DNA of 6,613 nt. Source: Candidatus Bathyarchaeota archaeon. Lineage in GTDB: Archaea; Thermoproteota; Bathyarchaeia; TCS64. This document shows, piece after piece, positions 1 to 6,613 of this stretch (position 1 is the first letter of the stretch; each line of letters begins with the position of its first letter). The notes below the pieces were generated by a model. The model had not been told where the DNA came from. It searched no databases and saw nothing but the letters and a program-made list of their open reading frames with translations. The translations under genes and the position numbers were made by a program. The DNA lies in contig JAFGTA010000032.1 of assembly GCA_016934355.1 (NCBI GenBank), positions 1 through 6,613 on the forward strand, written 5' to 3'.

Positions 1-1184
1 ACCATGATGGTGGGGGGCTTTACCGCCAGGTTGGGCTCCAGTATCACCTGCAGTGCCTCCCGGTCCTTGCTGGGCCGAGCCAGCGCGTCCGCGTACGCCA
101 TGCCTACGGGTCCGTCCACGGTGCCTATGAGGAGGTCGATGTGGGCGACCTCGTTGCTGTCGGGGTCCACCAGCGCCTCTCCTGTCCTTAGGCAGAACTG
201 CTCGATGAGTTTCGGCGTGACGTCCACCGCGGCGAACCTCTCGGTCACCGGCTTCTCGGGCAACTTGAAGGTGATATCCTTCTTCTTGATCAGCTCCAGC
301 TTCTCCAGCTCCACCCTGAACTCCTCGCGCAGCTCCCAGCTCACCACGTCCCCCAGCACGATGGGACGCCTCGTGGTGCCCACCTTCTGCCCCATGTAGT
401 TGAGGCAGACCTTGGGGCCGAGGGCTCCCGTGGCGACGATGTGTCTGGTGAACTTCTGCAGCCTGCGCTGTACCTTACGCGCCTCGTCCAGCTTCCCGGC
501 CTTGAACTTCCCGTATAGGTCGAGCCAGTAGGGGGCGACGACGTTGGCGGAGGCGAGAATCATGCCTTTGCACCCGGCTGCGAGGGCGGCAAGGACCACC
601 TCGTCCCAGCCGACGACGACGTCTATCTTGTCGCCGACCTTCTCAAGCACCGACATGAGGTACTTGAGGTCGCCGCTGCTGTCCTTCATGGCGCGGATGG
701 TGCTGCACTCGTCCACGAGGTCCTCGACCACCGGCCACGGGATGTACTGGTTGGTGGCGACGGGGATGTTGTAGAGCACCATGGGTATGTCCACGGCGCC
801 CGCTATGGTGACGTAGTGGTCGTAGATGCCCTTGCCGCCCTTGGGCTTCATGTAGTAGGGGTTGACTATGATGGCGGCGTCGGCGCCCACATCAAGGGCG
901 TGCTTGGTGGCGTCGATGACCAGCTTGGTCGCCGTGTCTCCTGTGCCGGCGATTACGGGTATCCTGCCGTTCACCTGGTCGACGCAGACCTCGATGACCT
1001 TCGCCCTCTCAGCCTGTGTCATGAGGCTGAACTCGCCTGTGGTGCCGCAGGGCACTATGCCCGTGATGCCCTGCCCTATGAGCCAGTCGACGAGGCTGCG
1101 GAAAGCGGGCTCGTCGAACTCCTCTTTTTTGTCGAAGGGCGTGACCACCGCTGGTAGCACGCCCTCAAGCTTGAAACCTGACAT
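1..1184 (-). CDS. Class I pyruvate aldolase (DapA/KDG-aldolase family) fused to formaldehyde-activating enzyme (Fae) domain; partial, C-terminus beyond left edge
   Basis: An uninterrupted frame of 394 codons runs from ATG 1184 off the left edge; I checked every codon and found no stop. Residues 1-300 are a full-length DapA-type TIM barrel: pyruvate-binding GTTGE (47-51), NPYY (108-111), catalytic Tyr138 in YNIP, and Schiff-base Lys167 in KDSSGD. The Arg that binds aspartate semialdehyde in true dihydrodipicolinate synthase (YNVPxRT) is Ala143 here, so a sugar-acid or hydroxy-oxoacid aldolase is more likely than lysine synthesis. After a linker (about 303-328), residues 329-394 match the Fae start: GEALV (335-339), NEVAHIDLLIG (344-354) with the conserved active-site His348, then EPNLAVKPPT (383-392). 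Fae joins formaldehyde to tetrahydromethanopterin. Roughly 100 Fae residues should lie outside the window. The segment around 371-378 departs from the usual Fae pattern, so it may be a Fae-like paralogue. The fusion suggests the aldolase releases or uses formaldehyde (inference). Confidence 0.92.
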   Translation of the reverse strand, partial: MSGFKLEGVLPAVVTPFDKKEEFDEPAFRSLVDWLIGQGITGIVPCGTTGEFSLMTQAERAKVIEVCVDQVNGRIPVIAGTGDTATKLVIDATKHALDVGADAAIIVNPYYMKPKGGKGIYDHYVTIAGAVDIPMVLYNIPVATNQYIPWPVVEDLVDECSTIRAMKDSSGDLKYLMSVLEKVGDKIDVVVGWDEVVLAALAAGCKGMILASANVVAPYWLDLYGKFKAGKLDEARKVQRRLQKFTRHIVATGALGPKVCLNYMGQKVGTTRRPIVLGDVVSWELREEFRVELEKLELIKKKDITFKLPEKPVTERFAAVDVTPKLIEQFCLRTGEALVDPDSNEVAHIDLLIGTVDGPVGMAYADALARPSKDREALQVILEPNLAVKPPTIM

Positions 1185-1307: not shown

Positions 1308-2558
1308 TTGATTGAGGTTGACATTCCTCACCACAGCTGGTATGAAGACGACCGCCTGACCCTCACGTTCCCGGACGGCTGGAAGGTGCACAGGTGCAGC
1401 GTCGCCTCCGAGGGCGCCAAGGCGCTGTCCCCGCAGCAGATCAAGGAGGCAATACACAGCCCCATAGGCCAGAAGCCGCTGACCAGGCTCGCGGAGAACG
1501 CCGAGGAGGCTGTAATCATCTTCGACGACATGACGAGGCCCACCAAGACGTATCAGTACGCGCCGGTCATACTGGAGACCCTCCGCAAGGCGGGGCTCCC
1601 CGAGGAGAACATCAGGTTCATCATCGCCCCAGGAACCCACGGCACCTATGGCCGCAGGGACTTCGTGAAGAAGCTGGGCGACAAGATAGTCTCGGAGTAC
1701 CAGGTCTACAACCACAACCCCTATGAGATGCTGGACTACCTGGGTGACACCAAGTATGGTTGCCCGGTCTGGGTGAACAGCGAGGTGATGGACTGCGACC
1801 TCAAGATCGGCGTGGGCACCGTACTGTTCCACAGGCTCGCGGGGCTCAGCGGCGGCGGCAAGCTCATCAGCCCGGGCGTCGCGGGCGTCGAGACCATCAG
1901 GTTCAACCACGGCGAGGTGGGCGGCTTCGGCCCGGGGCGTACCCCCCACAAGTCAACGGGCTACCTGAAGAACGACATGAACAAGTTGAGGCTGGACGCC
2001 GAAGCGGCGGCGAGGATGGCTGGGCTCGACTTCAAGATAGATACGGTGCTGAACCTGAGCAGGGACCCAATCGAGCTGTACGCTGGTGACTTCGTGGAGA
2101 CACAGAGGAAGGCCGCGGCGGGGGCCAAGAGGTGGCACAAGACCGAGAGCGTCGAGTCTGACATCGTGGTTGTGGGCAGCTACATGAGAGAAAACGAGCC
2201 GTACCTCGGGATGTGGCCCGCCCTGAACAGCGTCAGGGAGGGAGGCACCATCGTGCTGGTCAACGACTGCCCCGACGGCGACATAAACCACTGGCTATTC
2301 AACCGCCACGGCAAGAACGTGGGGGCGAGCCTGTGGAACCCGGTGGTTCGCCCGGTGCCTAAGAAGTGCAGGCTCATCATCTACGGGGATTACCCGCTGC
2401 AGAGCTTCCTCATGAGGTATGAGCCGGAAACGGTGAAGTGGATAAGGCGGTGGGGCGAGGTGGTGGAGGAGCTCAGGAACTACCATAACCCGGGTTCGAG
2501 AGTAGCCGTTATACCTGACGGGACGTCATGCATACCCAGCAAGGCTTTGGAGGCTTAA
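1308..2558 (+). CDS. LarA-family nickel-pincer 2-hydroxyacid racemase/epimerase
   Basis: This 416-residue protein is close in length to Lactobacillus plantarum lactate racemase LarA (about 424). LarA-family enzymes move a hydride at C2 of 2-hydroxy acids using a nickel-pincer nucleotide cofactor. The residues known from LarA appear at nearly the same numbers: DDMTRP (73-78) with Arg77; His111 in APGTHG; catalytic His175 in FHR; Lys185 in SGGGK, the lysine that carries the cofactor; and nickel ligand His201 in FNHG. The pocket therefore looks complete. Substrates in the family vary widely and cannot be read from this; the dehydratase genes that follow suggest a sugar acid rather than lactate. 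Cofactor synthesis needs LarB, LarC and LarE, none of which is here. The start is TTG at 1308, the first start codon after an in-frame stop at 1302-1304; no in-frame ATG or GTG precedes the conserved N-terminus. It ends 2 bases before the next gene's ATG. Confidence 0.9.
   Translation: MIEVDIPHHSWYEDDRLTLTFPDGWKVHRCSVASEGAKALSPQQIKEAIHSPIGQKPLTRLAENAEEAVIIFDDMTRPTKTYQYAPVILETLRKAGLPEENIRFIIAPGTHGTYGRRDFVKKLGDKIVSEYQVYNHNPYEMLDYLGDTKYGCPVWVNSEVMDCDLKIGVGTVLFHRLAGLSGGGKLISPGVAGVETIRFNHGEVGGFGPGRTPHKSTGYLKNDMNKLRLDAEAAARMAGLDFKIDTVLNLSRDPIELYAGDFVETQRKAAAGAKRWHKTESVESDIVVVGSYMRENEPYLGMWPALNSVREGGTIVLVNDCPDGDINHWLFNRHGKNVGASLWNPVVRPVPKKCRLIIYGDYPLQSFLMRYEPETVKWIRRWGEVVEELRNYHNPGSRVAVIPDGTSCIPSKALEA
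2549..2553 (+). promoter_or_regulatory. Ribosome-binding site that fixes the SAF-subunit start
   Basis: GGAGG lies inside the last codons of the LarA-family gene, 7 bases before ATG 2561. It favours that ATG over the in-frame ATG at 2528, which would overlap the upstream gene by 31 bases. Confidence 0.75.
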
Positions 2559-2560
2559 AG

Positions 2561-2866
2561 ATGAAGAAGGCGATTCAGCTGGACGAGAAGGACAACGTGG
2601 CGACCGTCACCGACGACGTGTCCAAGGGCGAGCAGGTCGAGGTGCTGAGCCCCATGGGTGAGGTCATCCTAGACGCGAAGCCGGTGGAGCCCATAGAGTT
2701 CGGGCACAAGCTCGCGCTGCGAAAGTTCACGAAAGGCGAGCAGGTAGTCAAGTACGGCGAAGTCATCGGGGTGGCGTCCCGGCCCATCGAGGTGGGCGAG
2801 TGGGTGCACACCCACAACGCGGAGTCGGGGCGGCTCCCCACCAGCAAGCTGGAGGCACAGGCATGA
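2561..2866 (+). CDS. Small (SAF-domain) subunit of a UxaA-family sugar-acid dehydratase
   Basis: This 101-residue protein corresponds to the N-terminal SAF domain of altronate/galactarate dehydratases, which in many organisms is fused to the catalytic part. Matching family features are GHKLALRKF (48-56), KGEQVVKYGEVIG (58-70), and the C-terminal VGEWVHTHNAESG (78-90) with paired His83 and His85. Acting with the large subunit next door, it should help remove water from a 2,3-dihydroxy acid to give a 2-oxo-3-deoxy acid. ATG 2561 was chosen because of the GGAGG 7 bases upstream and because the upstream in-frame ATG would add 11 non-family residues. It starts 2 bases after the LarA-family stop and overlaps the next start by 4 bases (ATGA). 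SuyA, the small subunit of (R)-sulfolactate sulfo-lyase, has the same layout, so that is the main alternative. Confidence 0.9.
   Translation: MKKAIQLDEKDNVATVTDDVSKGEQVEVLSPMGEVILDAKPVEPIEFGHKLALRKFTKGEQVVKYGEVIGVASRPIEVGEWVHTHNAESGRLPTSKLEAQA
2851..2855 (+). promoter_or_regulatory. Ribosome-binding site that fixes the large-subunit start
   Basis: GGAGG sits 7 bases before ATG 2863, the same spacing as for the preceding gene. With the ATGA stop/start overlap it supports ATG 2863 over the in-frame ATG at 2800 and suggests coupled translation of the two subunits. Confidence 0.75.
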
Positions 2867-4038
2867 CAGAGTTCTACGGTTACCAGCGGGAAGACGGCGA
2901 AATAGGCGTAAGGAACCACCTACTGGTCATCGCGCCAATCGACTGCAGCTACGAGCCCGCGAAGCAGGTGGCCGCCCAAGTCGAGGGCGCAGTGGCGGTG
3001 ACCCAGTACCACGGCTGCAGGGCCGATGAGATGCTTGTGAACGCCCTCGTGGGCACGGGTAGGAACCCCAACGTCGCTGGGATACTGCTGTTCGGCCTCG
3101 GCTGCGAGGTGCTAACCAACGACATCCTCATGGAGGGGATCAAGGACACGGGTAAGCCCATCGAGAGCATCGTAATCCAGGAGGACGGCGGCACCATAAA
3201 GTCCATGGAGAAGGGCGTCAGGGCCCTTCAGAGGATGGCCCAGTACGTGGGCGAGCTCAGAAAGGAGCCTTTCCCCCTCAGCGAGCTGACCCTCGCCGTG
3301 GAGTGCGGGGGCAGCGACGCCACCAGCGGCCTCGCCGCCAACCCGGCGGTGGGCGTTGCAGCGGACAGGCTCATCGAGGAGGGGGGCACGGTGATCTTCA
3401 GCGAGCCCCAGGAGATGATAGGCACCCAGCACATGTTGGCGAGGCGCGCCGTCAGCGAGAATGTGGCTAACGACATCTACGAGATGATAGAGAAGCAGGA
3501 GAAGAGGCTCAGCGCCATGGGGGTGGACAGCAGGTACATGAGCAAGGGAAACGTGGACGGCGGGCTCACCACAATCGAGGAGAAGAGCCTCGGCGCAATC
3601 CGTAAGGGCGGCACCAAGCCCATCCAGGGGGTGCTCTGGAACACGTGGGACAGCTTCGACCTCCCGGACGAGCCGGGCCTCTACCTTCAGGACGGCACCG
3701 GCTGGGACGTGCCCAGCGTCACCCACATGGTGGCGGCCGGCGCCCAGGTGGTCTGCTTCACAAGCGGCCGCGGAAGCACCACGGGCCACGCGGTGGCGCC
3801 CGTCATCAAGATAACGGGGAACCCCAAGACCTACGGTAACCTGGGCGACAACATCGACATCAACGCTGGCACCATTCTGGACGGCAGCGAAAGCCTGAAC
3901 AGCGTGGGGCGCCGCATCTTCGACGAGGTGATCTCGGTGGCCAGCGGCAAGAAGACCAAGGCTGAGGCGTTGGGCTTCAAGGACTACGTGGTGTTCGGCA
4001 GGGACAGGGCTTCCGAGAGGCTGCTGGGTCACTGCTGA
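2863..4038 (+). CDS. Large catalytic subunit of a UxaA-family (altronate/galactarate-type) sugar-acid dehydratase
   Basis: This 391-residue protein matches the catalytic region of altronate/galactarate dehydratases, which use a metal (usually iron) to remove water from sugar acids. Family signatures appear in order: GEIGVRN (12-18), YHGC (49-52), GLGCE (78-82), CGGSDATSGLAANPA (148-162), GGLTTIEEKSLG (about 230-241), FTSGRGSTTGH (299-309), then PVIKITGNP and DINAG. Cys52, Cys81 and Cys148 are the conserved cysteines visible. It is separate from its SAF partner, as in two-subunit members of the family (UxaA pairs, SuyAB). The exact substrate cannot be read from sequence; altronate, galactarate, shorter aldonates and sulfolactate are all used within the family. 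The LarA-like epimerase in the same operon and the divergent pyruvate aldolase favour a sugar acid broken down through a 2-oxo-3-deoxy acid (inference). It starts at ATG 2863 within the upstream stop. Confidence 0.92.
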   Translation: MTEFYGYQREDGEIGVRNHLLVIAPIDCSYEPAKQVAAQVEGAVAVTQYHGCRADEMLVNALVGTGRNPNVAGILLFGLGCEVLTNDILMEGIKDTGKPIESIVIQEDGGTIKSMEKGVRALQRMAQYVGELRKEPFPLSELTLAVECGGSDATSGLAANPAVGVAADRLIEEGGTVIFSEPQEMIGTQHMLARRAVSENVANDIYEMIEKQEKRLSAMGVDSRYMSKGNVDGGLTTIEEKSLGAIRKGGTKPIQGVLWNTWDSFDLPDEPGLYLQDGTGWDVPSVTHMVAAGAQVVCFTSGRGSTTGHAVAPVIKITGNPKTYGNLGDNIDINAGTILDGSESLNSVGRRIFDEVISVASGKKTKAEALGFKDYVVFGRDRASERLLGHC

Positions 4039-4050
4039 GCCCCCGTATTA

Positions 4051-4059
4051 CTTATATAC
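4051..4059 (+). promoter_or_regulatory. TATA box for the ribbon-helix-helix gene
   Basis: TTATATAC (4052-4059) is a strong archaeal TATA match, 13 bases after the dehydratase stop. Its centre is about 28 bases from GTG 4083 and 34 from ATG 4089, so the gene has its own promoter and a leaderless or nearly leaderless mRNA. Confidence 0.65.
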
Positions 4060-4082
4060 TACCTATTTCCTACCAACTATGA

Positions 4083-4385
4083 GTGTCCATGGTTCAGAAG
4101 ATATCCATATCCATCTCCGAGGAGCTCGACAGGACGCTGAGCAACCTGGCAAAGGAGAACCGGATATCCAAGAGCAGGCTCATAGAGAACTACCTCAGGG
4201 AGAACCCCAAGGTCATCACAGAGCTCATCACCAGAGGAGACACCTGCTCGCTGTGCCACACAAAGATCGGCAAGGACGAGGTCAAGGTCAACACGCCGAG
4301 GTACGGCGTGCTGTGCCTGAGCTGCTGGACTGAGAAACAGGGAGAACTATTCGAAGAACATCCATTACACGTGGACAGGGGCTAA
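4083..4385 (+). CDS. Small ribbon-helix-helix protein with C-terminal zinc-binding CxxC pair
   Basis: This protein of about 98-100 residues has two parts. Counting from ATG 4089, the first 40 residues read as a ribbon-helix-helix (CopG/Arc-like) DNA-binding domain: strand KISISIS (4-10), helix EELDRTLSNLAKEN (11-24), turn RISKS (25-29), then a second helix. The rest carries CSLC (53-56) and CLSC (76-79), two CxxC knuckles 19 residues apart that should hold one zinc ion. It is probably a dimeric transcription regulator; the target is unknown. GTG 4083 fits the TATA spacing for a leaderless mRNA, and ATG 4089 is equally possible. It follows the dehydratase by 44 bases and could regulate that operon, but has its own promoter. 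Its stop overlaps the stop of the converging acetyltransferase by 3 bases (4382-4385 shared region). Confidence 0.8.
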   Translation: MSMVQKISISISEELDRTLSNLAKENRISKSRLIENYLRENPKVITELITRGDTCSLCHTKIGKDEVKVNTPRYGVLCLSCWTEKQGELFEEHPLHVDRG

Positions 4386-4750
4386 CTCGGCACCCTGAAT
4401 ATGAGGGTCTTGCAGCCCTCTCCCCAGTGGGGGTCGTCGTAGGATAGAACCTCCTCCCAGCCGAGGGCAGCGAAGAACGGCGCCACATCGCCGACGGCCT
4501 CGCAGCACATTATCACTATTCCTCTTTCGCGGCAGGTCAGTAGGATGAACTCCATCAGCTTGGCGCCGTAGCCCTTCCCGGTGTGCCCTTCCGCGACGCC
4601 GACGCGGCTCAGGTACAGCGTGTCGTGGACGTTGGTGAAGCTGCGGACGTGGAAGCTCACGAGGCCCAGGACTTCCTCGTCGTCTGTTAGCACGTAGGTC
4701 TCGTACCCTTTCTCCCTGTCGCGGCGCAGGTAGTGATGGAGTGTGATCAT
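4382..4750 (-). CDS. GNAT-family N-acetyltransferase, N-terminus uncertain
   Basis: From ATG 4750 this is 122 residues with a GNAT fold: YETYVLTDDEEVLGLVSF (16-33), then motif A, SRVGVAEGHTGKGYGAKLM (about 48-66), whose xGxGxG-type loop binds the acetyl-CoA pyrophosphate. The CCEAVGDVAPFFAALGWEE stretch is the usual C-terminal part (motif B). It transfers an acetyl group from acetyl-CoA to an unidentified amine. In this subgroup, which includes TacT-like proteins, an RRLxxxDDR...FxxG...FD segment comes before the LxxYLRR helix. Here that segment is in frame upstream of ATG 4750 (4751-4837) but has no ATG, GTG or TTG to start it. So the ATG-4750 product may lack its first strand, or the real start may be unusual. 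The gene converges with the ribbon-helix-helix gene. No toxin-antitoxin partner is evident; a link to that DNA-binding protein is unlikely because they are transcribed toward each other. Confidence 0.8.
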   Translation of the reverse strand: MITLHHYLRRDREKGYETYVLTDDEEVLGLVSFHVRSFTNVHDTLYLSRVGVAEGHTGKGYGAKLMEFILLTCRERGIVIMCCEAVGDVAPFFAALGWEEVLSYDDPHWGEGCKTLIFRVPS

Positions 4751-4954: not shown

Positions 4955-5554
4955 ATGCATTATTTCGTTCAGGCATACGAGGAGTTGGTCTCAGCTATCT
5001 TCGCGGCTATGAAAGGGCTCAACACGGAGGAGGTCGAGTCCCTCATGTCGGCTCTTCTGGAGACGCGTGAAAGCGGCAGCAAGGTTCTGGTGGTGGGCGC
5101 CGGCAGGAGCGGCCTCGTGGGCAAGGCGTTCGCGATGCGGCTCATGCACCTCGGTTTCCGGGTCTACGTGCTGGGGGAGACCATCAACCCGTACATGGGG
5201 GAGGGCGACCTGGTCATCGTCATATCGGGCAGCGGAAAGACCACTGTCCCCCTAGCCGCGGCTACGATGGCGAAGCGCCTCGGGGCTAGGGTGGTCGCGA
5301 TCACGAGTCAGGAGAGGTCGCCTCTCGCCCTGAACGCCGACTTGGTCGTCGACATTCCGGGGAGGGACGAGATCGCTGACATGGACGAGTATCATAGTAG
5401 GCAGATGCTTGGGATGCATGAGAGCCTGGCCCCCATGGGGACGCTGTTCGAGGACACCGTGATGGTGTTTCTGGACTCGCTGATAGCCGAGTTGATGAAC
5501 AGGCTGGGGCTCAGCGAGGACTCTATGAGGAGGCATCACGCGACGATAGAGTAG
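4955..5554 (+). CDS. hxlB: 6-phospho-3-hexuloisomerase (PHI), SIS-domain enzyme
   Basis: This 199-residue protein interconverts D-arabino-hex-3-ulose 6-phosphate and fructose 6-phosphate. With hexulose-phosphate synthase (HPS), it fixes formaldehyde onto ribulose 5-phosphate or, in many archaea, runs backward to make ribulose 5-phosphate and releases formaldehyde. It has the family signatures: VGAGRSG (47-53), FAMRLMHLGF (59-68), GET (74-76), the SIS phosphosugar loop SGSGKT (91-96), PMGTLFE (160-166) with the conserved Glu, and Arg-His (193-194) near the C-terminus, as in Methanocaldococcus MJ1247. Length is normal. It is a single-domain enzyme; no HPS gene or HPS fusion is in the window. 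Start: ATG 4955, well placed after a TATA-like element. The upstream inverted repeat suggests regulation. It ends 6 bases from the stop of the converging rubrerythrin-like gene. Confidence 0.93.
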   Translation: MHYFVQAYEELVSAIFAAMKGLNTEEVESLMSALLETRESGSKVLVVGAGRSGLVGKAFAMRLMHLGFRVYVLGETINPYMGEGDLVIVISGSGKTTVPLAAATMAKRLGARVVAITSQERSPLALNADLVVDIPGRDEIADMDEYHSRQMLGMHESLAPMGTLFEDTVMVFLDSLIAELMNRLGLSEDSMRRHHATIE

Positions 5555-5560
5555 GGGCCG

Positions 5561-6028
5561 CTACATCTCGGCGAGGACTACGTCGTCGTACTCTTTCTCC
5601 AGGAGGTACTTGTGGCGGAGCTCCTCCTTGGCGAAGTTGTTGAACATCTTCCCGAGCTCGGTGTCGCTGAACTTTCTCGCGACCTGTACGTAGAAGTCGT
5701 GGGTCGTCTTCTCCCGCTGTGCCGCGTAGATGAGTATCTGCGGGTAGTCGGCCTGGGGGTCGAGGGGTACCTTGACCAGCTTGTCCGTTATCTTGAGGTC
5801 TGGGATGTTCTCCTTGAGGGTCCGCATCTTGACGTTCTTAGGGTCCTTGAGGCCCTGGAGGAAGTATTCGCGGTGCCGCTTCTCGTCTGAGGCGAGCTCT
5901 GTGAGCAGCTTCTTGGCCCCCGGGTACGTCGACTTCTCGGCGGTCTCGGTGTACAGGGTGTATGATTCGAGCTCCATCTCGGCGCCTACCTTGAGCGCCT
6001 TCTCGATGGTCCAGTTCTCGATATTCAT
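5561..6028 (-). CDS. Rubrerythrin-like ferritin-fold diiron protein without a rubredoxin domain
   Basis: This 155-residue protein is a four-helix ferritin-like domain. Helix 1 has the EMELESYTLY pattern (17-26) with a likely ligand Glu19. Helix 2 has DEKRH (48-52), an ExxH pair. Helix 3 has Glu106 in QREKTTHDFY, and helix 4 has EELRH (135-139), a second ExxH pair. These are the carboxylate/histidine ligands of a diiron site. Rubrerythrins usually reduce peroxide and carry a C-terminal rubredoxin with CxxC pairs; this protein has no cysteine at all, so it would need a separate electron donor, or may have another role such as iron handling. It is cytoplasmic, with no signal peptide. ATG 6028 follows a good TATA element by about 33 bases. 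It is divergent from the CinA-like gene and convergent with the hexuloisomerase gene. Confidence 0.87.
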   Translation of the reverse strand: MNIENWTIEKALKVGAEMELESYTLYTETAEKSTYPGAKKLLTELASDEKRHREYFLQGLKDPKNVKMRTLKENIPDLKITDKLVKVPLDPQADYPQILIYAAQREKTTHDFYVQVARKFSDTELGKMFNNFAKEELRHKYLLEKEYDDVVLAEM

Positions 6029-6109: not shown

Positions 6110-6613
6110 ATGAAGCCCACCGGCAGCGTCAACGTGGAGATCATCGCCACGGGGGACGAGTTGATCTACGGCAGGATATTGGACACGAACAGTCACTGGA
6201 TCGCTCAGCGGGTGGCGGAGCTGGGCGCCAGGCTCAGGAGGATCACGACCATCGGCGACGAGCCTGAGCTCATCGCGGAGACCCTGCACGACGCGCTGAA
6301 GAGGGACGCCCACTTCATCATTTTCTCGGGCGGCCTCGGCCCCAGCGAGGACGACAAGACTGTGGACAGCATCGGCTTGGCGCTGGGTAAGGGTACTGTC
6401 GTCGACGAGGAGGGGGCCCGGAAGATCGAGGCAGTGTACAGGAAGCGGGGCATAGTCGACAAGCCGTCTATTGTTCGTGGGCGGAGGATGGCGAGGATTC
6501 TGGAGGACAGCTGCGCGATGCAGAACCCTGTGGGTTTCTCGGTGGGGATGGCGGTGGATGTCGGCGGTAAGACGGTCTGCACGTTGCCGGGTGTACCGGC
6601 TGAGATGAAGGGC
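6110..6613 (+). CDS. CinA/MoeA-like molybdopterin-binding (MoCF) domain protein; partial, C-terminus beyond right edge
   Basis: The first 168 codons are present and the frame is open at the right edge. The sequence matches the MoCF-biosynthesis domain of the CinA N-terminal family (COG1058): VEIIATGDELIYGRILDTN (9-27), with the conserved TGDELxxG and DTN; SGGLGPSEDDKT (73-84), the nucleotide/pterin-binding loop; NPVGF further on; and LPGVPAEMKG (159-168), the family's LPGxPxEM motif. Archaeal members are usually about 250 residues and lack the C-terminal nicotinamide-mononucleotide deamidase domain of bacterial CinA; whether that domain is present here cannot be seen. Relatives hydrolyse pyrophosphate bonds in ADP-ribose or NAD-type nucleotides, but the role in archaea is not settled. 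Start: ATG 6110, leaderless after a TATA box 27 bases upstream. It is the first gene of its unit, divergent from the rubrerythrin-like gene. Confidence 0.88.
   Translation, partial: MKPTGSVNVEIIATGDELIYGRILDTNSHWIAQRVAELGARLRRITTIGDEPELIAETLHDALKRDAHFIIFSGGLGPSEDDKTVDSIGLALGKGTVVDEEGARKIEAVYRKRGIVDKPSIVRGRRMARILEDSCAMQNPVGFSVGMAVDVGGKTVCTLPGVPAEMKG

Follow-up and report, generated by a model that had tools for sequence, protein, structure and literature searches.

A widespread archaeal fusion of a DapA-type pyruvate aldolase to a formaldehyde-activating enzyme and its possible role in 4-hydroxy-2-oxobutanoate metabolism

Fusions of a formaldehyde-activating enzyme (Fae) to an aldolase are already known from Fae-Hps (NCBIfam NF009833, bifunctional tetrahydromethanopterin hydro-lyase/3-hexulose-6-phosphate synthase), in which Fae is joined to a formaldehyde-handling aldolase, hexulose-phosphate synthase. 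The Fae-Hps fusion has been proposed to recover formaldehyde (PMC5241800, available portion) and has been found in one Lokiarchaeota MAG (PMC7495880, available portion). Among aldolases that depend on pyruvate, the relevant family is PF00701, which comprises the DHDPS, NAL and KDG aldolases, including YagE and NanA of Escherichia coli, and is marked by a Schiff-base lysine, a tyrosine and a GTTGE motif. Pyruvate is the usual substrate of these DapA enzymes, to whose family YagE and NanA belong. According to the accessible part of PMC12709889, YagE splits 4-hydroxy-2-oxobutanoate (HOB) into pyruvate and formaldehyde in vitro and E. coli requires NanA to grow on an HOB precursor. Cleavage of HOB is a side activity of both enzymes, and neither is fused to Fae. 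Strains have also been described in which aldolases join formaldehyde and pyruvate into HOB, which is transaminated to homoserine (PMC13279387, available portion). The synthetic homoserine cycle (He et al. 2020, via the review PMC8879981, available portion) leads likewise from pyruvate and formaldehyde through HOB and homoserine to threonine (ThrB/ThrC); it was engineered in E. coli and relies on RhmA and free formaldehyde, and the same part of the review terms HOB non-native. The protein considered here is a Fae–aldolase fusion, hence of a kind known from Fae-Hps, with a pairing to DapA for which no description was found in the literature searched.

The window, that is the whole stretch of 6,613 nucleotides that was analysed, comes from a Candidatus Bathyarchaeota archaeon and begins inside the fusion gene (Table 1). 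A preliminary description, made from the letters alone, had read this gene as a single stop-free frame running from its ATG to the edge, with an intact DapA-type active site followed by the signature motifs of Fae. Each of these points is borne out. The frame holds 394 codons and zero stops, and its 3′ end lies past the window edge. The N-terminal domain is a class I pyruvate aldolase barrel with GTTGE, Tyr138 and Lys167 at the positions proposed, and the profile match together with the Schiff-base lysine, the tyrosine and GTTGE places it in the DapA/DHDPS superfamily. The Fae part corresponds to positions 1-60 of 159 of the PF08714 profile and contains EVAHIDLLIG (with His348) and PNLAVKPPT, an instance of the PNLxxKP motif. 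This fragment exceeds the Pfam cut-off (56 versus 27 bits) and, taken alone, stays below that of TIGR03126 (58 versus 118.05 bits); since the window edge falls inside Fae, the remainder of the domain was assessed from relatives. The protein falls outside Fae-Hps, as its other domain is PF00701 and lies on the N-terminal side. Fae is thus C-terminal to the aldolase in DapA-Fae, whereas it is N-terminal in Fae-Hps, where the Hps barrel is of another kind and acts on a sugar phosphate; the signature motif of Fae is shared by both. In the predicted structure, confidence is good for the DapA barrel and lower for Fae; the linker (residues 305-344) is poorly modelled, at pLDDT <50.

Table 1. Features of the window, with coordinates on its forward strand
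Feature	Coordinates	Strand	Basis
DapA-Fae fusion gene, 5′ 394 codons	3..1184	-	Stop-free frame from ATG 1184 to base 3
DapA/DHDPS domain, residues 6-276	357..1169	-	Pfam PF00701, E 2.3e-70
Fae domain, first 61 residues (334-394)	3..185	-	Pfam PF08714, E 6.2e-15
LarA-like nickel-pincer 2-hydroxyacid racemase/epimerase	1308..2558	+	Lar_N PF09861, 2.7e-52
Small SAF subunit, UxaA/galactarate-dehydratase-type enzyme	2561..2866	+	PF08666
Large subunit (GD_AH) of that dehydratase	2863..4038	+	PF20629, 4.4e-86; PF04295
6-phospho-3-hexuloisomerase (HxlB/PHI)	4955..5554	+	TIGR03127, 177 bits (cut-off 160)

The domain pair is found well beyond this contig. When residues 290-394 were searched against ~5.8 billion proteins, 793 matches were obtained, and among the 120 listed both Pfam domains are present in 111. 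Full-length homologues are mostly 494-501 aa long and carry the Fae residues missing from the window, about 100 of which the preliminary description had expected beyond the edge. The listed proteins of at least 480 aa, 104 in number, all contain E[VL]AH[IV]D, whose histidine we take to be the catalytic one of Fae, and 103 of them contain [MLIV]KDSSGD with the lysine; the columns that never vary in an alignment of 14 sequences include GTTGE, Tyr138, Lys167, His348 and Lys389-Pro390. When one genome was scanned for each species, 101 loci were found, and all of the best 80, which were kept, match query residues 4-491 or more, i.e. both domains. Their hosts are Bathyarchaeota, Lokiarchaeota, one Theionarchaeum and two genomes titled only archaeon or Thermoproteota. 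In the class of G024 (Bathyarchaeota), 54 of the 190 genomes carry the full fusion, taken as a match spanning about positions 2-456 or beyond; the fragment genomes G065, G198, G140 and G142 were excluded from both sides of comparisons within this class. In the class of G014 (Lokiarchaeota) the full fusion is carried by 33 of 64 genomes. The gene order of the window recurs in locus L002 (genome G002, Bathyarchaeota RBG_13_60_20), whose fusion (3177-4661) is 87.6% identical over 394 residues, with a Fae match reaching position 158 of 159. The fusion is therefore real, not accidental, and widespread in two archaeal classes. As far as the literature searched on the fusion, its hosts and related chemistry shows, it is also undescribed, in agreement with the earlier statement that no such aldolase–Fae fusion was known: the accessible main text of a survey of archaeal fusions (PMC11237513) does not contain DapA-Fae, and the accessible part of PMC11631310, which records fae for Bathyarchaeia, mentions no fusion either.

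When complete, the C-terminal domain qualifies as Fae by a curated profile cut-off, scoring 188.8 against 118.05 bits (TIGR03126, one_C_fae) in L010; that of P0001 matches Methylobacterium extorquens Fae (1y5y) at E 1.7e-25. A tetrahydromethanopterin (H4MPT) cyclohydrolase is found in 37 of 40 fusion genomes, with no match in G006, G024 and G028; for G024 this speaks against an H4MPT role in that organism, unless the 22 kb of its chromosome that are masked hide the gene. Fae matches are present in 40 of 40 of these genomes and number two in 32. Fifteen of the second copies were fetched and ten scored, of which nine are Fae-Hps over the cut-off and one is a lone Fae, so that Fae-Hps often stands beside DapA-Fae in one genome; its position as the nearest known relative, suggested at the outset, is upheld. 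The bathyarchaeal Fae-Hps proteins of L101, L104, L110, L111 and L115 carry an N-terminal extension of ~55-90 residues before Fae, which by eye looks like a DNA-binding domain.

A pyruvate-using aldolase and a formaldehyde-handling site have one natural meeting point, HOB, and two unrelated kinds of neighbour, thrB-thrC in genome G197 and the UxaA-type pair in the window, L002 and L066, both point to this compound. The chemistry of HOB and formaldehyde put forward in the preliminary description is thus supported as a prediction from context. The most economical reading, to which we give slightly less than an even chance, is that the fusion is a formaldehyde-channelling pyruvate aldolase, in effect an H4MPT-dependent pyruvate hydroxymethyltransferase, whose direction probably differs between lineages. 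Pyruvate would form a Schiff base with Lys167 in the DapA domain, where the C3–C4 bond of HOB would be made or broken; the Fae domain would take up or supply formaldehyde as methylene-H4MPT, formaldehyde passing between the two sites, with the net reaction pyruvate + methylene-H4MPT + H2O ↔ HOB + H4MPT. PanB and SHMT also move a C1 unit between a methylene-tetrahydropterin and a carbon acid, the type of transfer proposed here, but they do so in a single active site and by an unrelated mechanism. In one set of archaea the reaction would probably run towards HOB, a transaminase then yielding homoserine for ThrB/ThrC in place of the aspartokinase–Asd–Hom (homoserine dehydrogenase) route. With the arrangement seen in the window it would probably run in reverse, splitting HOB that stems from sugar acids with four carbons and keeping the C1 unit available to the H4MPT branch of the Wood–Ljungdahl pathway.

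The clearest operon is that of G197 (L081), in which the fusion (6938-8425), ThrB (8622-9500) and ThrC (9497-10726) follow one another on the + strand in a genome giving no match to Hom. It is the only case of thrBC beside the fusion in the 97 loci searched, some of which share a contig and many of which have cut flanks; in L059 a ThrC-like paralogue (36% identity) lies 3.4 kb from the fusion. On the genome scale (class of G024), Hom is present in 6 of 54 fusion genomes (G001, G003, where it is a fragment at a contig end, G027, G028, G063 and G125) versus 109 of 132 others, a count uncorrected for kinship that includes short or weak pieces (G003, G158, G152) and comes from MAGs that may miss genes. 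With ThrC taken as a best E of 1e-72 or better and ThrB as 81 matches over the cut-off plus four weaker ones, ThrB and ThrC occur without Hom in 5 of the 9 fusion genomes that have both versus 4 of 70 others (Fisher p 6e-4, kinship uncorrected). In a block around the window's near relatives, delimited post hoc by genome listing order, Hom is found among ThrC-positive genomes in 1 of 6 with the fusion versus 8 of 10 without (p 0.035, kinship uncorrected). The figures become 1 of 4 versus 8 of 10 (p 0.095) if ThrB is also required, and 1 of 7 versus 9 of 11 (p 0.013) if G197 and G200 are included; these two were removed because their ThrC and the fusion of G197 look like those of another group. 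Three genomes with no fusion (G201, G203 and G210) have thrB-thrC(-ask)-asd-hom together, ask and asd being confirmed by model, and at the corresponding locus three with the fusion (G199, G037 and G204) have only thrB-thrC; G202 and G208, which keep thrBC with neither a Hom match nor the fusion, are counter-examples. These counts agree in part with a route from HOB to homoserine. In 15 Lokiarchaeota fusion genomes, Hom occurs in four and ThrC over the cut-off in five, both side by side in three. In the class of G024, ThrC is found in 8 of the 14 fusion genomes that lack the partner protein described below, and ThrB and ThrC occur together in only 3 (G003, G027 and G197) of the 40 that have it, so threonine supply cannot be the general or only use of the fusion.

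The neighbours in the window point the other way. The LarA-like gene is divergent from the fusion, finds its best solved match in the malate racemase Mar2 and stands at the equivalent place in L002. The dehydratase pair is also divergent, in the window as in L002 and L066, the LarA-like gene being found only in the first two of these; the small SAF subunit takes the equivalent place in all three, and the best solved match of the large subunit is galactarate dehydratase (6u7l, E 2e-50). A UxaA-type dehydratase acting on a tetronate, a four-carbon sugar acid, would give HOB, which the fusion could then split. The pair could also act on another substrate: alternatives are a SuyA-type identity for the SAF subunit and a SuyAB-like sulfolactate lyase for the pair as a whole. 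The preliminary description had joined a formaldehyde-releasing site to a formaldehyde-trapping one; the UxaA/LarA context of the window favours such a release, and as a one-way scheme the idea is unsupported, since the fusion–thrB–thrC operon points towards HOB synthesis. HxlB/PHI, also encoded in the window, belongs to the other formaldehyde-linked route (reverse RuMP); no copy was found next to the fusion in any of the 80 kept loci, and its tie to the fusion is metabolic only.

Other assignments have to be weighed against a formaldehyde-channelling HOB aldolase. The name dapA used in databases would make the fusion a normal dihydrodipicolinate synthase for lysine, joined to Fae by chance, and it is explained by a score just above the cut-off of the NCBIfam dapA equivalog TIGR00674 (211.7 versus 206.15 bits; 235.4 bits for L010). 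DHDPS, however, has an arginine that the fusion lacks. Ala143 aligns opposite the arginine of solved DHDPS chains (6xgs, 2yxg), the residue after YNxPx that we take to be Arg138 of E. coli DHDPS, which binds aspartate semialdehyde. No arginine occupies this position in any of the 104 long listed proteins or the 32 aligned rows, in which Cys, Ala, Leu or Thr takes its place; the protein thus does not qualify as DHDPS proper (EC 4.3.3.7), and a carboxylate appears not to be needed on the aldehyde partner. Moreover, tblastn (E 1e-5) on the fusion-bearing chromosome G024, of which 22 kb reads N, gave no match to two bathyarchaeal aspartokinases, Asds and Homs or to three ThrBs, with EF-1A and SHMT found as controls, so no route to the DHDPS substrate is seen there. 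Missing arginine and missing Ask/Asd together make lysine synthesis a highly improbable job for the fusion. Replacement of PanB, by formation of ketopantoate from 2-oxoisovalerate and formaldehyde, shares the overall reaction type with PanB and would suit the 23 of 40 fusion genomes that have no PanB over the cut-off; we consider it very unlikely, as PanB is present in the other 17 (including 12 of 15 Lokiarchaeota) and DapA enzymes normally use pyruvate.

Harder to set aside is the proposal that DapA acts as a sugar-acid aldolase on a longer 2-oxo-3-deoxy acid and so handles an aldehyde other than formaldehyde, with Fae binding another aldehyde or only holding the oligomer together. Its main support comes from a sister group of DapA-Fae proteins, ~471 aa when complete (P0263, P0267, P0272, P0274-P0278, P0281, P0283, P0285-P0287 and P0289, the last labelled Chloroflexota), in which the DapA site is kept and Fae has decayed, the His motif and usual C-terminus being lost in most rows (P0278 keeps HID); a Fae fold can thus persist without Fae catalysis. 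Sugar acids also suit the UxaA and LarA neighbours, the GWDE/GHDE residues of the fusion resemble the sugar-binding GYDE of NAL, and G024 bears the fusion with no H4MPT cyclohydrolase match. The Fae His motif in all 104 long listed fusions and the H4MPT cyclohydrolase in most hosts argue against it, and we regard it as unlikely while giving it real weight. That the fusion is a catabolic trap only, HOB from sugar acids being split and the formaldehyde captured by Fae for the Wood–Ljungdahl pathway, would agree with the divergent LarA and UxaA genes, with the absence of ThrC by threshold from 37 of the 40 fusion genomes with a partner gene and with Fae-Hps as a precedent for formaldehyde capture (PMC5241800, available portion); the G197 operon and the thrBC pairs kept without ask-asd-hom in G199, G037 and G204 make so restricted a role quite improbable. 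The poorly modelled linker would suit domains with unrelated jobs, or a tether for formaldehyde detoxification only; with the pair maintained in Bathyarchaeota, Lokiarchaeota and a Theionarchaeum, and a separate Fae-Hps fusion coexisting in these genomes, this is scarcely credible. A tandem arrangement in genome G082 (L087:6052-9001, - strand) brings two DapA-Fae genes together, of which one retains the Fae His motif intact and the other has a decayed Fae, and the gene of the partner protein is nearby.

This partner protein, of ~428 aa, is the commonest neighbour of the fusion, present in 61 of the 80 kept loci. In all 36 Lokiarchaeota loci its gene immediately precedes the fusion on the same strand; of the other 44 loci 25 have it, 19 of these in divergent orientation within ~600 nt. 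In the class of G024 it is found in 43 of 190 genomes, of which 40 have the full fusion. An example is L010:1219-2502 (+ strand; alignment A4). The protein carries the motifs LDTKGT, HLGGPxTITGYFGGVG, EHHIxET and SAKHEGG. Its relatives in databases number at least 8000; neither a Pfam family nor a family name was found for it, and its modelled fold, a helical domain plus a barrel, gave no distinctive structural match. A broader version of the HOB reading, which we advance tentatively and think somewhat unlikely, would combine a natural route from Wood–Ljungdahl C1 units to homoserine, the fusion replacing aspartokinase, Asd and Hom, with a further pathway in Lokiarchaeota and Bathyarchaeota that starts from pyruvate and C1 units and involves the partner protein. 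If true, uncultured archaea would possess a natural counterpart of the homoserine shortcut engineered for methanol use, the H4MPT C1 pool would be linked directly to pyruvate and amino acids, and threonine synthesis without homoserine dehydrogenase would become easier to understand in some archaea; a ready-made channelled enzyme for condensing formaldehyde would also be at hand. Fae would then have been joined to two or more distinct aldolases that handle formaldehyde, and a protein with thousands of database relatives is marked out beside one of them.

Several smaller features of these contigs may be recorded. Where no partner gene was found nearby, fusion contigs carry a ~311-aa protein (L002:4773-5705, + strand; also L066, L069, L075, L078 and L091; alignment A5), with a weak resemblance to peptidase U32 (seen in 2 of 6 members, best E 0.043) and perhaps to the partner protein. 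In the window, a rubrerythrin/ferritin-like protein (5561-6028, - strand) and the start of a CinA-like protein (6110-6613, + strand) show no sign of belonging with the fusion. A PNP_UDP_1-type phosphorylase, identified by Pfam in L006 and alike by eye in L007 and L086, follows the fusion by ~50-100 nt in these three loci (L006:7911-8819, L007:11587-12450 and L086:10219-11076).
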